DNA of 64,000 nucleotides, taken from positions 1 to 64,000 of the forward strand of contig NZ_PIPQ01000001.1 of NCBI RefSeq assembly GCF_003987015.1, read 5' to 3'. The notes under the pieces were generated by a model that was not told the DNA's origin, searched no databases, and saw nothing but the letters and a program-made list of their open reading frames with translations. This document shows, piece after piece, positions 49,728 to 55,673 of the stretch (position 1 is the stretch's first letter; every line of letters begins with the position of its first letter). Source of the DNA: Aliidiomarina taiwanensis (GTDB taxonomy: Bacteria > Pseudomonadota > Gammaproteobacteria > Enterobacterales > Alteromonadaceae). A program made the translations under genes and the position numbers.

Positions 49728-52505
49728 TTAGTGGGCTTCGTCCCAGTTGTCCCCCACACCCGCTTCCGCAATTAAGGGAACGTCGAGTTCCGCAGCACTT
49801 TCCATAACACGTACTAACTCGGCCACATGGGTGTCCAGGCAGTCTTCACGAATCTCAAACACTAATTCGTCGTGCACCTGCATGGTCATATACACTTCGC
49901 CTTCGTTCGGTGTTGTGGCTAACCAGTCTTCCACCTTTAACATGGCCCGCTTAATTATGTCGGCTGCCGAGCCCTGCATAGGTGCGTTAATGGCTGCCCG
50001 CTCTGCCGCTTTTCTACGTGGAACATTCCGCGCATTAATTTCGGGTAGGTATAGGCGACGTCCGTAGATGGTTTCAACATAGCCTTGGCTTGCCGCCTGC
50101 TCGCGGGTTCTGTCCATATAGTCTTGCACGCCTGGGAAACGTTCAAAGTAAATGTCCATATAACGCTGCGCTTCTTTTTGCCCCACATTGAGTTGTTTGG
50201 CTAAGCCGAACGCTGACATGCCATAAATTAAACCGAAGTTCACTGCTTTAGCGCTACGGCGCTGTTCTGAAGTGACGGCATCTAAACTAACACCAAACAC
50301 TTCACTTGCGGTGGCGCGGTGAATGTCTCGCCCTCGGGCAAAGGCTTGTAGTAACCCTTCCGACCGCGACAAATGCGCCATAATTCGCAGTTCAATTTGG
50401 CTATAGTCAATGGCGACTACTTTATATCCTGGTGGTGCCACGAAGGCTTGACGCACGCGGCGGCCCGCTTCATTTCGAATGGGTATATTTTGCAAGTTCG
50501 GCTCTGTTGAAGACAACCGGCCTGTTGCTGTCACTGCCTGATGGTACGAGGTATGAATTCGACCCGTTTCCGCATTGATCATACGGGGCAATTTGTCCGT
50601 ATAGGTAGACTTCAACTTGGCTAAACCGCGGTGGCGTAAAATCAGTTCCGGCAGTGGGTAGTCCAGTGCCAACTCTTGCAACACATCTTCTGCTGTCGAA
50701 GGAGCGCCCTTTGGCGTTTTCTTTTTAATGGGTAACCCAAGCTGTTCGAATAAAATCGTTTGCAGCTGTTTTGGTGAGTTTAAGTTAAAAGGCGCCCCAG
50801 CAATTTCAAAGGCGTCTTTTTCTATTTCGCTCAGCTCTTTGGCAATTTCTTGGCTTTGTTTACTTAAACGGTCGGCATTTATCAGCACACCCCGACGCTC
50901 CATACCGCCTAAAATGGGCAGTAATGGCAGTTCTAACTCTGTTAACACCGACTTTAAGCCTGCAATGTCACACACTTTTGGCCAAATCGCCTGATGCAAC
51001 CGCAGGGTAATGTCTGCGTCTTCAGCTGCATAGGGTGCGGCTTCTGCAATGGGAATTTGATCAAAAGTTTTTTGCTTCGCTCCTTTGCCGGCTAAGCTTT
51101 CATAACTAATGGTTTTGTGGCCTAAGTACTGCAAACTCAGGGTGTCCATGTCGTGGCGAGAACTGACACTGTTCAACACATACGAAGCGAGCATGGTGTC
51201 GTTTAGTATGCCCTTTAATTGAATGCCGTAATTACCCAGTACATGCAGGTCGTACTTGAGGTTTTGACCCACTTTCTTTTTCGCTGTGTCTTCTAGCAGT
51301 GGCTTCAGTGCTTGCAGTACCTGGTCTCGCGGAAGTTGGCTAGGGCCGCTTAAGTCTTGGTGAGCCAGCGGAATGTAGCAGGCTTCCCCAGGAACAGAGG
51401 CAAAGGACATGCCCACAAGCTCAGCTTCCATGTAGTTTAAGCTGGTGGTTTCTGTGTCTAAGGCATAACACTCTGCTTGCTCTAATTGGGTTATCCAGCG
51501 TTGTAAGGCCTCTTCCGTGGTAACCACTTCATAGTTGTCGTGGTCGAAGCTGGCTAGCTCTGCCGTGGGCGCTTCTTCCTGTTCTGGGTCTGTGGTTTTT
51601 ACTTCCGCAGCCGAAGTACCACCCTCTTCTAATAGCTCGCCTAACCAACGTCTAAATTCACACTTTTTATAAAGTTCTATAAGCGTGTCCACGTCTGGCG
51701 ACTTACGCTCGAAGGCTTCCAGATTCATCGGCAAGTCCACATCAAGCTTGATGGTGGCTAACTCCCGTGAAAGCAGCAAAATGTCTTTATGTTCAGCAAT
51801 TTTAGCCGGCATACTTTTCGCGCCGCGGAAACTGAGTTCGGTAATTTTCTCAGGGTTCGCTAGCATAGCGTCAATGCTGCCCATGCCTTGCAAAATGCTT
51901 TGGGCCGTTTTTTCGCCCACACCTGGCATGCCTGGAATATTGTCGGAGCTGTCTCCCATTAATGCCAAGTAATCAATAATTTGGGCGGGACGCACACCAA
52001 AGCGCTCTTCCACTGTTTCCGGTGTCGACACGCGATTGTCTAACGTATTGATCAGGGTTACCGAGTCGTTTACCAGCTGTGCCATGTCTTTGTCGCTGGT
52101 GCTAATTAAGGTATGAAGCCCTTGTGAGGTTGCATACTGAGCCAAGGTACCAATGACGTCGTCGGCTTCTACGTTGTCAATCACCACCAAGGGCAGGCCC
52201 ATGGCTTTAATTATTTCATGTAATGGCGCTATTTGTGTGCGTAAGTCGTCGGGCATGGGTGGACGATTCGCCTTATATTCCGCATACATGTCGTTCCGGA
52301 ATGTTTTGCCTTTGGCGTCAAATACAACCGCCATATGGCTAGGCTCGTACTGGTTTAACAAGCTTTTCAGCATGTTTACAACACCGTAAATGGCACCGGT
52401 GGCTTCACCCGCAGAATTGGTTAAATGGGGTGGAGCATAATACGCACGAAATAAATACGATGAACCATCAACAAGCACAAATGGATTTTTGGGGATATCT
52501 GACAT
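49728..52505 (-). CDS. polA: DNA polymerase I
   Basis: The 925-residue protein has all three PolA domains. The 5'-3' exonuclease (about 1-290) starts FVLVDGSSYLFRAYYA and contains GEKTAQSILQ. The 3'-5' exonuclease (about 325-515) has DTETTSLNYME near 346, and the polymerase has motif A DYSQIELR near 698 and motif C QVHDELVFE near 876. It fills gaps and removes RNA primers during replication and repair. The ATG at 52505 with GGAAGG just upstream is chosen over a TTG five codons earlier. The 413-base region upstream contains DnaA-box-like repeats and a GATC cluster. Confidence 0.96.
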   Translation of the reverse strand: MSDIPKNPFVLVDGSSYLFRAYYAPPHLTNSAGEATGAIYGVVNMLKSLLNQYEPSHMAVVFDAKGKTFRNDMYAEYKANRPPMPDDLRTQIAPLHEIIKAMGLPLVVIDNVEADDVIGTLAQYATSQGLHTLISTSDKDMAQLVNDSVTLINTLDNRVSTPETVEERFGVRPAQIIDYLALMGDSSDNIPGMPGVGEKTAQSILQGMGSIDAMLANPEKITELSFRGAKSMPAKIAEHKDILLLSRELATIKLDVDLPMNLEAFERKSPDVDTLIELYKKCEFRRWLGELLEEGGTSAAEVKTTDPEQEEAPTAELASFDHDNYEVVTTEEALQRWITQLEQAECYALDTETTSLNYMEAELVGMSFASVPGEACYIPLAHQDLSGPSQLPRDQVLQALKPLLEDTAKKKVGQNLKYDLHVLGNYGIQLKGILNDTMLASYVLNSVSSRHDMDTLSLQYLGHKTISYESLAGKGAKQKTFDQIPIAEAAPYAAEDADITLRLHQAIWPKVCDIAGLKSVLTELELPLLPILGGMERRGVLINADRLSKQSQEIAKELSEIEKDAFEIAGAPFNLNSPKQLQTILFEQLGLPIKKKTPKGAPSTAEDVLQELALDYPLPELILRHRGLAKLKSTYTDKLPRMINAETGRIHTSYHQAVTATGRLSSTEPNLQNIPIRNEAGRRVRQAFVAPPGYKVVAIDYSQIELRIMAHLSRSEGLLQAFARGRDIHRATASEVFGVSLDAVTSEQRRSAKAVNFGLIYGMSAFGLAKQLNVGQKEAQRYMDIYFERFPGVQDYMDRTREQAASQGYVETIYGRRLYLPEINARNVPRRKAAERAAINAPMQGSAADIIKRAMLKVEDWLATTPNEGEVYMTMQVHDELVFEIREDCLDTHVAELVRVMESAAELDVPLIAEAGVGDNWDEAH

Positions 52506-52598
52506 GAAGCCTTCCAACAAAGAGTAAAGTTCTGGGTATTAGAATGCCACAAACCGGCCGTTGAAAGCGACTCGCTTCCGTATATAGCTGTTATTCAT

Positions 52599-52631
52599 TG
52601 TGGACGAACCTGTGGATAAGTCTGTGTAGAA
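52599..52631 (+). repeat. Three DnaA-box-like 9-mers at exact 12-bp spacing
   Basis: TGTGGACGA (52599-52607), TGTGGATAA (52611-52619) and TGTGTAGAA (52623-52631) are in the same orientation, exactly 12 bases apart. The middle one is a perfect DnaA box (complement TTATCCACA); the third matches 8 of 9 and the first 7 of 9 consensus positions. Confidence 0.6.
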
Positions 52632-52723
52632 ATGCCGAAGCCTGCCGTGAGTCAATGAAAAATCGACAGCAGCATTAATAACCTAAGTGGTTGTTTTAAC
52701 GGGATAAAGCAGGATATTCCCGG

Positions 52724-52881
52724 ACATTTTTATTGTTCTTTTAAATTTCCTAACCAACTGTGGAAAGCGGTGCCGCTTTTGATCCTTCATACTCAGAGTT
52801 GAGCATCAGCTGGTCGATTAGAATACCACAATAATAGATCGGATCTAGTGATCTTTGATCAATTTTTAGCATGGATCGATC
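52724..52881. other. AT-rich stretch and dense GATC (Dam-site) cluster, origin-like
   Basis: After an AT-rich run (52724-52750) there are seven GATC sites in 101 bases: 52781, 52837, 52842, 52850, 52857, 52874 and 52878. Six fall within 45 bases. Chance expectation is well below one. GATC-dense DNA next to DnaA boxes is the layout of gammaproteobacterial oriC and other SeqA-binding regions. No gene fits here. Confidence 0.55.
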
Positions 52882-52918
52882 TTGACTTTTGGCCGTTCAC
52901 TGTAAGCCTGTGAATTCA

Positions 52919-53656
52919 TTAACTTCGTTGAAACAAGCGCTGAAACATACCGGCCTTTTCTTCCGATCGCTCTTGCTGTTGCAAGGGACCGGACCAAATT
53001 TTATGCAGCCCTTGTTGAGCAAAGCCATAGAAGTCAGGCTGTAGTGTGGTTAAGCCTGGCCCGGAAATTAACGAAGTAATGGCCACGGGCGGATACACCA
53101 CCTGCCAACAGCCAAGTAAATACGCATAGCTTTGCAACAGGCGTGTTTGTATTTCTTCAAGGGCATGTGTGTCACGATCTGCAACGGTACAAATGGCAGC
53201 GGCTGTGGATCGGTACTCTTGAGCCAATTTGGTTTTATGGTGCAACAGATCGTTTTTATCGAGTGCGGGCTCTAAGGTGAAGTGGCTGAGGCTTGCCAGT
53301 AACCATACATAGGGTTGATGCTGCTTGAAGCTAAGTAAGGCGTCGACAATACTGTGGTTCATATCACCCGAATGAAAGCGCAGCTGGTCACGCACTGCTG
53401 CAAACCAGGCGAACAACTGTTGTTCGAACAAGGCCATATAAATGGCTTCTTTGCTTTTAAAATAAATGTAGGCGGTCCCTTTAGCGACCCCGGCTTTTGC
53501 CGCTATGGCGTGGACTGTGGGCAGCTGACCATTTTGCTCTAGTAACAACTGCAAAGCCGCTGCTAACAAACTGCTGCGGCGAGCGTCTTTTTCTTTCGCG
53601 GTGCGCGCCCGCTGTTTACTGCCAAGTCCTGTTTTTCCATGCGTTTTGTCGTCCAT
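52919..53656 (-). CDS. TetR/AcrR-family transcriptional regulator
   Basis: The 245-residue protein has an N-terminal TetR helix-turn-helix (about 25-75) containing TVHAIAAKAGVAKGTAYIYFKSKEAIYMALF, split here by the usual recognition-helix pattern, and a divergent helical ligand domain. An unusually basic stretch (KQRARTAKEKDARRS) precedes the DNA-binding domain. The ATG at 53656 has AAGGACA upstream. It starts 14 bases after the frameshifted SLC13 permease gene and may once have regulated it. The ligand is unknown. It ends 37 bases from the GATC cluster. Confidence 0.85.
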   Translation of the reverse strand: MDDKTHGKTGLGSKQRARTAKEKDARRSSLLAAALQLLLEQNGQLPTVHAIAAKAGVAKGTAYIYFKSKEAIYMALFEQQLFAWFAAVRDQLRFHSGDMNHSIVDALLSFKQHQPYVWLLASLSHFTLEPALDKNDLLHHKTKLAQEYRSTAAAICTVADRDTHALEEIQTRLLQSYAYLLGCWQVVYPPVAITSLISGPGLTTLQPDFYGFAQQGLHKIWSGPLQQQERSEEKAGMFQRLFQRS

Positions 53657-53670
53657 GGCAGTGTCCTTCC

Positions 53671-55673
53671 TTATAGGGGCCAAATAATAGGTAACATAAA
53701 CATGGCAATAACAAACACCAAAATTTCCATGGGCAAACCGAGCTTCCAATAGTCACCAAACCGAAAGCCACCTGGCCCTAATATTAAGGTGTTATTTTGA
53801 TGCCCAATAGGTGTTAAAAAGGCGCAGGAGGCTCCTACTGCTACTGCCATTAAAAAGGCATCGGGGTTTACGCCAAGCTGCCCTGCCGCACTTAACGCCA
53901 CAGGACACATAACCGCAGCCGTGGCCGCATTATTCATAAAGTCCGACAAGCTCATAGACAAGATTAAAATAATACCAAGCGCCACAAGGGTGTGGCCCTG
54001 AGCCACATATTGCAGCATGCCGTTTGCCACCAAGTCCGCAGTGCCTGTGGTCGACATGGCTCCTGCGACCGGAATAAGCGCAGCCAATAACACCACAATG
54101 GACCAGTCAATACTTTCATATAAATGCCGTAGCGGCATGATTTTCAATGCCATGAGCGCAACGACTCCACCCGCAAAAGAAAGTGCTGCAGGCATTAAAC
54201 CTAAAGCTGCACCTAAAATAGCAAACAGCATAATAGTTGAAGCTTGCACTGCTTTTTTATTGCTTGGTACGCGAATGGTTCGCTCTGCTAAAGGAACACA
54301 GCCAAACTGTGAAGCAAAACTTGCCAGGCGTTCAGGTTCACCCTGCATCAATATAACGTCGCCAGCACTTATTTTAGTGCGCCGCAATCGCTGTACGGAA
54401 TGTTTTCCCTGCCGGGAAATAGCCAATAAATTGAGTCCGTAACGGGTGCGAAGTTCCAGCTCCTGGGCCGTATGCATGATAATTTTGGCGTTTGGCAATA
54501 CCACCATTTCAACCAGTACAATGTCCCGATTTGCTGAGTTTTTCTCTATGTCTGTACTTGCTTGGGTACTTGGGTCGCGCATGCCAACCTGAAATCCTCG
54601 CAAGGTGCGCTCGCTCGACACCGTAATACGGCGGTCGAACCAACGGCTTGATAGTGACGCCGCTGGCGCACTCGTTGGGGTGTACATGGGCTGAACCGGT
54701 AAGCTACTGTGGGGCACTCGTTCACTTTCTAAAGTGACCGAATGTATTTTACCCAAGCTGGGCGGCTCTTTCTTACTGTCGGGTCGAACGTTTTCTAATA
54801 GTCGTAGCCCCAACGACGATAACAACTGACTTAACTTGTCTGGTTCAGCTTCCAGCATCAGCAAGTCGCCAGCTTTTAATGACTTATTCCAATGGGGAGT
54901 GATAACCTTTTCCCCGTCTCGCACCATACCAAGCAACTGCCCTTCTGAGTCGTCAATGGCTTTTTCTAAGTGCCAAATGGTCATGCCTTCGGCTTTACCG
55001 CCCTCGACAACTTTTACTTCAATTAAATACCGTCCTGTGTCGAAGTTTGCTGCGTCCATACGCTGTCGAACCGGCACCAAACGCCAACCAATAAGTGCTA
55101 AAAAGACCACGCCGACAAAAGCCACGGAAAAGCCCACGGGCGTGAAAGAAAACATACCAAAACCCTGGCTACTATATTCTGCTCGGAAACCGGCCACAAT
55201 CAGGTTTGGCGGTGTTCCTATCAGGGTCGTCATGCCGCCTAGAATAGCGCCGAAAGCCACCGGCATAAGCACCTGCCCTGGCGCAATTTTTAAACGGTTG
55301 CCAATTGAATTGCCACGGGCATAAGTAAGGCCATAGCACCCACGTTGTTCATAAAGGCCGACATTAAAGCCGCTAACGCAGTAAGCGCCGCAATGGTTTT
55401 TGTCGGTGAGGTTGCCCCCGGAGCCAGCTTGTTCGCTACCACGTCAATGGCACCGGTACGTTGCAGGCTAAAACTCATAACCAACACGCATGCTACGGTG
55501 ATAACTGCGGGGTGGCTAAAGCCAGAAAAAGCAAAGTCACCGGGCACCACACCCACCACGACACAGGCGGTTAACGCCAGTAAAGCCACTACATCGTGTC
55601 GCCATTTATCAATAATAAACAACACAATGGTAATAACTAAAATGGTCAGAATAAGTATTTGGTCGACACTCAT
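53671..55673 (-). pseudogene. SLC13-family permease with RCK_C domains, disrupted by a single-base frameshift
   Basis: Two minus-strand frames together make one SLC13/DASS-type permease. The first (55673-55290) encodes the start, helices and NNVGAMALLMPVA. The second (continuing to 53671) encodes LKIAPGQVLMPVAFGAILGG, GTPPNLIVAGF, two soluble TrkA-C-like domains and the C-terminal helices. The frame breaks near 55298, where the minus strand reads GCAACCG; one extra A (GCAAACCG) would restore A-N-R-L-K and a continuous protein of about 665 residues. This is a real inactivating deletion or a sequencing error. The family moves anions such as sulfate or dicarboxylates. The ATG overlaps the aroE stop (ATGA). 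Confidence 0.8.

Follow-up and report, generated by a model that had tools for sequence, protein, structure and literature searches.

A conserved region upstream of polA in Aliidiomarina taiwanensis looks like a DnaA-dependent control region for DNA polymerase I

In Escherichia coli, polA is named as a DnaA-activated gene in the excerpted text of PMC11317965 and PMC8203912, both citing Quinones 1997, and Table 1 of PMC11317965 lists the double DnaA box of E. coli polA as a 123-fold DnaA ChIP-seq peak. The same paper, as excerpted, calls the mechanism by which DnaA activates transcription poorly understood and mentions a roadblock role for DnaA. Two further systems are relevant here. According to excerpts of PMC4585315, the activity of datA depends on boxes 2 and 3, the IHF site and their spacing, and excerpts of PMC10950094 give datA boxes 2, 3 and 7 as essential. 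Sequestration of the dnaA promoter by SeqA is described in the excerpted part of PMC13337833. DnaA control of polA is already known. The open-licence literature that we searched showed no report of the composite layout described below, nor of a far box, a midpoint IHF-like site, a second promoter with GATC sites or covarying hairpins at polA, and the word polA was not found in the main text of the IHF papers searched for E. coli.

We analyzed the first 64 kb (the window) of contig C1 from the A. taiwanensis genome, which comprises 2.53 Mb in 29 contigs. An initial annotation made from the letters of the window had described an origin-like element beside polA, and had offered three readings of it: the chromosomal origin, a datA/DARS-like site that regulates DnaA, or a cell-cycle switch on polA. 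The element lies in a non-coding gap of 398 bp (52521-52918) between two genes:

49728-52505, minus strand: polA, DNA polymerase I, the gene placed under control of the region (NCBIfam PRK05755, 1201.8 bits, cut-off 720)
52919-53749, minus strand: TetR-type regulator, the upstream neighbor

The element had been said to be flanked by core genes on both sides. On one side is polA, and on the other the TetR-type regulator; aroE and hemF are found a few kb further. The dnaA gene is at C1:83.7 kb.

The gap contains four DnaA-like boxes and one IHF-like site, all on the strand of polA:

52599-52607, minus strand: third DnaA-like box TCGTCCACA, weak, with 2 mismatches to TTATCCACA; unconserved in the genus alignment
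52611-52619, minus strand: near DnaA box TTATCCACA, perfect; its TTAT and CACA are invariant in 17/17 genus genomes
52623-52631, minus strand: partner box TTCTACACA, 2 mismatches; 12 bp from the near box, with which it forms a double DnaA box
52684-52696, minus strand: IHF-like site AAACAACCACTTA, 1 mismatch to WATCAANNNNTTR
52759-52767, minus strand: far DnaA-like box CTTTCCACA; its spacing to the near box is 148 bp

The first three boxes are the same-strand 9-mers already noticed in the initial annotation, and their exact 12-bp period (starts at 52599, 52611 and 52623 on the minus strand, one of them perfect) was confirmed; the far box lies outside that triplet. The CACA of the partner box is invariant in all 17 genus genomes, and its position matches that of the E. 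coli polA double box. As in E. coli, a double box (52611/52623, polA strand) is located directly upstream of the polA promoter motif.

We searched the 2.53-Mb genome with a strict tandem pattern, CACANANTTATNCACA, derived from the polA element itself. It matched twice (the reversed control matched 0 times), at the polA element and upstream of two tRNA-Asn genes on contig C23. A looser pattern gave six matches, three inside open frames and three intergenic, namely at polA, in the rpmH-dnaA gap and at the tRNA-Asn site on C23. At the last of these (C23:139.8 kb, L160 ~2815-2853), the tandem DnaA-like boxes end in CACAAAGTTATCCACA; the two tRNA-Asn genes follow ~290 bp downstream, and rsxA follows at 1.3 kb. 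In the rpmH-dnaA gap (C1:84743-84831), a perfect DnaA box is paired with a weak one and three GATC fall within 46 bp, a content that fits a dnaA promoter under DnaA and SeqA, as expected.

To analyze the conservation of the element, we compared the region upstream of polA in 17 genus genomes (Aliidiomarina among them, and one Idiomarina sp. MAG, L095 = G014), in the best 80 named gammaproteobacterial loci and in E. coli K-12. Four genomes were in both samples (L077 = G016, L081 = G002, L082 = G008, and the MAG), and removal of the duplicates left 94 loci: 17 of the genus, 76 of the 80 named loci and E. coli K-12. The named sample favors close PolA relatives, consists of polA loci by design, and its species are not independent. 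A TTATNCACA-type near box was found before polA in 64 of the 94 non-duplicate loci. These element loci belong to Idiomarinaceae, Pseudoalteromonas, Alteromonas and relatives, Rheinheimera, Alkalimonas, Moritella, Shewanella, Vibrionaceae, Marinobacter and E. coli. Such a box was absent before polA in the other 30 of the 94 loci, from Methylophaga, Kangiella, Thiohalophilus, Thiodiazotropha and many other gammaproteobacterial assemblies. Most element loci have a partner ending in ACA, 12 bp upstream of the near box. In 57 of the 64 loci, a far NNNTCCACA box stands further upstream, at 129-160 bp from the near box; the spacing is 141-148 bp in 45 of these 57, with exactly 142 in 8 and 146 in 13.

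Within the genus, the conservation on which the initial annotation had staked its claim was borne out, as near, partner and far boxes are kept in 17/17 genomes. Yet the gene upstream is variable; in 6/17 it has an N-terminal motif that we take to be ElbB-like.

We then scanned the polA-sense strand for IHF-like sites, allowing at most 1 mismatch to WATCAANNNNTTR. A match 73-77 bp from the near box, near the midpoint of the two boxes, was found in 32 of the 64 element loci and in 15/17 of the genus, and the remaining 18 matches in the 64 loci were scattered across the other 152 positions scanned. No midpoint site with up to 1 mismatch was found in the E. coli, Vibrionaceae or Alteromonas loci. 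E. coli polA has the double box TTATGCACAaagTTATCCACA at the same place, in the same orientation and with the same 12-bp period, together with a related TGTGGCAT motif before polA and a far box at 141 bp. It differs from the window in the lack of the midpoint IHF-like match (up to 1 mismatch), in having 3 GATC in the 450 bp before polA, and in giving no match to the pattern of the distal promoter-like motif described below. By position and layout, as read from the sequences, the window element is related to the DnaA-bound polA control region of E. coli.

The second option of the initial annotation was a datA/DARS-like site. On a datA-like reading, a complex built on the boxes and the IHF-like site would inactivate or titrate DnaA near the origin, and polA would be just a neighbor; datA itself acts with IHF to stimulate the hydrolysis of DnaA-ATP. 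The ingredients are indeed those of E. coli datA, in which a double DnaA box, an IHF site and further boxes lie within ~160 bp. The locus is 62 kb from oriC, it is one of only three intergenic sites among the six looser double-box matches in the genome, and polA has been placed in an oriC-associated region of E. coli suited to titration. The composition is compatible with such a site, but order and orientation are not those of datA. Here the order is box, IHF-like site, double box; in datA the double box is followed by the IHF site at 65 bp, on the opposite strand, and by a box at 162 bp, with further boxes elsewhere; the neighborhood of datA, glyVXY-queG, is also different. Boxes on both sides of the IHF site in the spacing and order that define datA are not found in the window element. 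In addition, E. coli has the polA site plus a separate datA. Our sample was drawn from polA loci and is silent on elements away from polA. DARS1 and DARS2 are characterized by a core of three DnaA boxes that releases ADP from DnaA, to which DARS2 adds IHF and Fis sites. As for DARS2, the only DARS compared, the E. coli stretch has matches on both strands, whereas the window has three tandem boxes on one strand. Judged by its sequence, the polA element may work somewhat like datA, though it is not assignable to the datA class, and we regard a datA-like site as quite an unlikely account of the locus.

Beyond the DnaA boxes, the gap is rich in GATC, the Dam methylation site:

52781-52784, either strand: isolated seventh GATC
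52837-52881, either strand: six-GATC cluster, over and above the -35 region of the distal promoter-like motif P2 (see below)

The initial count of seven GATC in 101 bp, six of them in 45 bp, was correct (starts at 52781, 52837, 52842, 52850, 52857, 52874 and 52878). None of 2000 dinucleotide shuffles equaled the count of 7 in the 398-bp gap, and none of the 2000 held 6 in 45 bp. GATC is about threefold depleted in the sequence read (304 in 223 kb, where random sequence would have 872), so the polA cluster is all the more conspicuous. This depletion is strong in the 463 kb read, despite the genome encoding a Dam-family enzyme and SeqA. At least four GATC per 60 bp occur at three places in the 463 kb: the polA element (6), which is the densest, then oriC (5), and C12:24664 (4). 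Across the whole genome, we found 22 close GATC triplets (gaps up to 20; 8 in the reversed-pattern control), of which 8 are at oriC, 4 at the polA element and 10 at nine other places, making the polA element second to oriC. At C12:24664 (L161:4664-4699), four GATC in 36 bp immediately precede the start of a 295-aa gene; this gene has no NCBIfam match and is itself followed by a D12-type methyltransferase gene. We describe this place as a GATC-rich, operator-like stretch.

DnaA boxes, a GATC cluster, modest AT richness and nearby core genes might suggest an origin of replication, either that of the chromosome or a second one. However, 62 kb away, an E. coli-type oriC was found at C1:115119-115539. 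It is flanked by a MioC-like flavodoxin gene (C1:114678-115118; MioC is the best NCBIfam model, with 127.8 bits, below the cut-off of 158) and mnmG (from C1:115540; 930.4 bits, above the cut-off). That region has 8 DnaA-like boxes and 11 GATC per 300 bp. The cumulative GC skew, examined over the first 223 kb of C1, drops to ~100 kb, stays low until ~140 kb and then climbs, so that its minimum is broad, at ~100-140 kb rather than 52.7 kb, and contains the oriC region. The polA element lies outside this minimum and has no conserved origin gene context; like an origin of the mioC-oriC-mnmG type it has DnaA boxes and a GATC cluster, but the boxes are fewer and the AT content is lower. The AT-rich stretch of the initial annotation proved weak, with 59% AT over 283 bp, and 68% in the richest 100 bp of the gap, compared with 75% in the true oriC. 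Moreover, the conserved parts of the element are promoter-like motifs and hairpins. A further DnaA cluster, at C1:169 kb, lies inside coding sequence and was discarded. Because a complete oriC region sits elsewhere, we rejected the polA element as the main origin; on sequence grounds the first option of the initial annotation is refuted, and an origin of either kind at polA is extremely improbable. This origin-like look can mislead origin finding.

Two promoter-like motifs were recognized in the gap:

52541-52551, minus strand: proximal promoter P1 (putative), extended -10-like TGTGGCATTCT, with a conserved TGGCA-type motif
52820-52830, minus strand: distal promoter P2 (putative), extended -10-like TGTGGTATTCT, found by pattern

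A TGGCA-type motif is present between the near box and polA in 56 of the 64 element loci, E. coli included. By pattern match, a TGTGNTANTCT-like P2 motif lies above the far box in 39 of the 64 loci and in 13/17 of the genus. A scan for the sigma-70 consensus detected neither P1 nor P2, nor any terminator-like site, so both putative promoters rest on conservation.

At least two GATC cover P2 in 14 of the 39 pattern-matched loci: 10/13 of the genus, 4/4 of Pseudoalteromonas, where three GATC stand at the place of P2, and 0/22 of the others. GATC over P2 is absent in 5/17 genus genomes. Outside the loci with GATC over P2, GATC gathers beside other parts of the element. In genus genome G007, four of the six cluster GATC are at the same offsets from polA as in the window genome (G000), and the sequence around these shared sites is 40/65 identical. 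In the 450 bp before polA, the 64 element loci have a mean of 3.19 GATC, where the composition outside this stretch of each locus predicts 1.63 (47 above expectation, p 4e-6), while the 30 loci lacking the element have 2.07 against 2.21 (13 above, p 0.45). Related species are not independent, so these p values are indicative, and since the 30 loci belong to other lineages, element and lineage are confounded. Marinobacter nauticus (L113), which is outside the families compared most closely, has nine GATC in the 450 bp before polA and far and near DnaA boxes 146 bp apart.

The initial annotation had made its proposal depend on dam and seqA, and both are encoded in the genome. Dam was identified by TIGR00571 (296.9 bits, cut-off 114.85), with the closer E. 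coli-type model PRK10904 at 416.4, below 441, and SeqA by PRK11187 (203.4 bits, cut-off 185). IHF-alpha is encoded as well. Clustered GATC thus lies over the putative promoter P2 in a Dam+ SeqA+ genome, which is the arrangement of SeqA-sequestered promoters. The likeness to dnaA and other such promoters consists of a GATC-rich promoter region near oriC in a genome with Dam and SeqA; the element differs in its target, polA, and in that the cluster covers a distal motif that is promoter-like by sequence.

We also considered that the region is an ordinary DnaA-activated polA promoter, to which the GATC cluster and the hairpins described below are unrelated, the cluster serving, for instance, another regulator as a Dam-dependent operator. 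In favor of this, E. coli polA is known to be under DnaA control, the position of GATC is not conserved across families, and the stretch at C12:24664 is an example of GATC richness before an unrelated gene. Against this stand the GATC enrichment in element loci and its lack in the 30 others (confounded with lineage), the four offsets kept between G000 and G007 in sequence that is 40/65 identical, and the three GATC at the same promoter place in Pseudoalteromonas. On balance, we consider this explanation rather unlikely, and prefer the reading in which methylation takes part: DNA methylation would probably also set when DNA polymerase I is made.

Between the far and near boxes, two hairpins common to the 17 genus sequences were predicted in a putative leader RNA:

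52643-52674, minus strand: hairpin H2, two 5-pair helices with 98.8% and 93.7% of cells paired
52700-52724, minus strand: hairpin H1, 83.5% of cells paired, changes on both sides in 4/5 pairs

In H2, changes on both sides were seen in 7/10 pairs. For the hairpins together, 92.0% of 249 cells are paired against 73.0% in shuffles, two-sided changes occur in 11/15 pairs against 7.7, and the covariation score is 0.559 against 0.200 in shuffles and at most 0.161 when the partner is slid. A measure counting further pair types was not unusual (83/500 shuffles). The consensus energy of the sense strand is -10.2 and that of its complement -4.9, and the fold energy of H2 is lower on the sense strand in 16/17 sequences and equal in one. 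G-U cells outnumber A-C cells by 28:1 in H2 and by 13:1 in H1; a single invariant U-G pair accounts for 17 of the 28 in H2. Ratio and fold comparison favor the sense strand, but in part this reflects that the structure had been predicted from it. A DNA cruciform would have no strand preference; therefore, the simplest reading of these sequence patterns is that the hairpins are part of an RNA read in the direction of polA.

No Rfam family matched the upstream hairpins, and none reached gathering scores in the window. A lax RNA-family scan of 551 bases gave three matches, the best with E 0.43, to implausible families, and these were dismissed. In the 17 genus loci, the RNA-family scan found one 5S rRNA and six Spot 42 matches. 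Spot 42 is likewise a conserved RNA beside polA in gammaproteobacteria, but it lies downstream of polA (6/17 loci), and the window hairpins lie upstream. An ATG open frame of at least 25 codons is present in the region in 5/17 genus genomes and in none of the other 12; those of G000 and G013 share part of the frame where the DNA is alike. As no small open frame is common to the genus, a conserved leader peptide is unlikely.

A covariance model of the hairpins (R1) matched 3 of 98 family genomes, the only three of the window's genus in that sample, at the polA element in G000 and at one place in each of the other two. In 52 sources, it found the window and two weak syntenic matches, with E 0.04 in Idiomarina zobellii and 0.07 in Pseudidiomarina piscicola. 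Significant R1 matches are confined to genus members. Outside the genus, 36 syntenic folds were scored (37 given; Pseudoalteromonas SMS1 was left out, and the far box of Alteromonas gracilis was taken as its near box). Of these, 17 had z below -1.5, and the sense strand was the lower one in 26 and the higher one in 10; in 4/5 Vibrionaceae z was near 0.

Taken together, the cell-cycle switch on polA is the best supported of the three original options, given an element before polA in 64 of the 94 loci and the E. coli double box. The stretch looks like an old, well conserved polA control region that would let DnaA set the timing of DNA polymerase I. We give a probability of roughly 0.7 to a polA switch in which the promoters are acted on by a DnaA loop, probably aided by IHF, while Dam/SeqA gate the distal promoter after fork passage. 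DnaA at the near double box would activate P1, in line with what is reported for polA in E. coli. A loop with the far box is suggested by the conserved spacing and the IHF-like site at the midpoint: the near double box and the far box may be bound by DnaA and brought together, an IHF bend helping, into a looped complex that would activate P1 and could hinder RNA polymerase arriving from P2. Transcription from P2 would run through the DnaA and IHF sites, so DnaA may additionally serve as a roadblock. With oriC 62 kb away, the fork would pass the locus soon after initiation; the hemimethylated GATC cluster would then bind SeqA and P2 would be shut temporarily, as at the dnaA promoter. The P2 transcript would carry a structured leader, with the hairpins just before the point of that roadblock. 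Overall, the supply of DNA polymerase I would be coupled to the initiation cycle.

A bolder form of this scheme is an ancient composite polA switch, in which a DnaA loop of near-fixed span that both sets polA transcription and is an origin-proximal DnaA sink, a SeqA-closed P2 and a leader RNA that reads DnaA occupancy (DnaA-dependent attenuation) would work together, with the core shared from E. coli to Idiomarinaceae and IHF in some lineages. We regard the full combination as unlikely and put it forward tentatively.

For the polA switch itself, the comparative map gives concrete parts that can be mutated: the spaced second box, the IHF-like midpoint found in half of the loci, and the Dam cluster over the second promoter. 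It would make testable the idea that the supply of the polymerase for repair and Okazaki fragments is tied to the initiation cycle.
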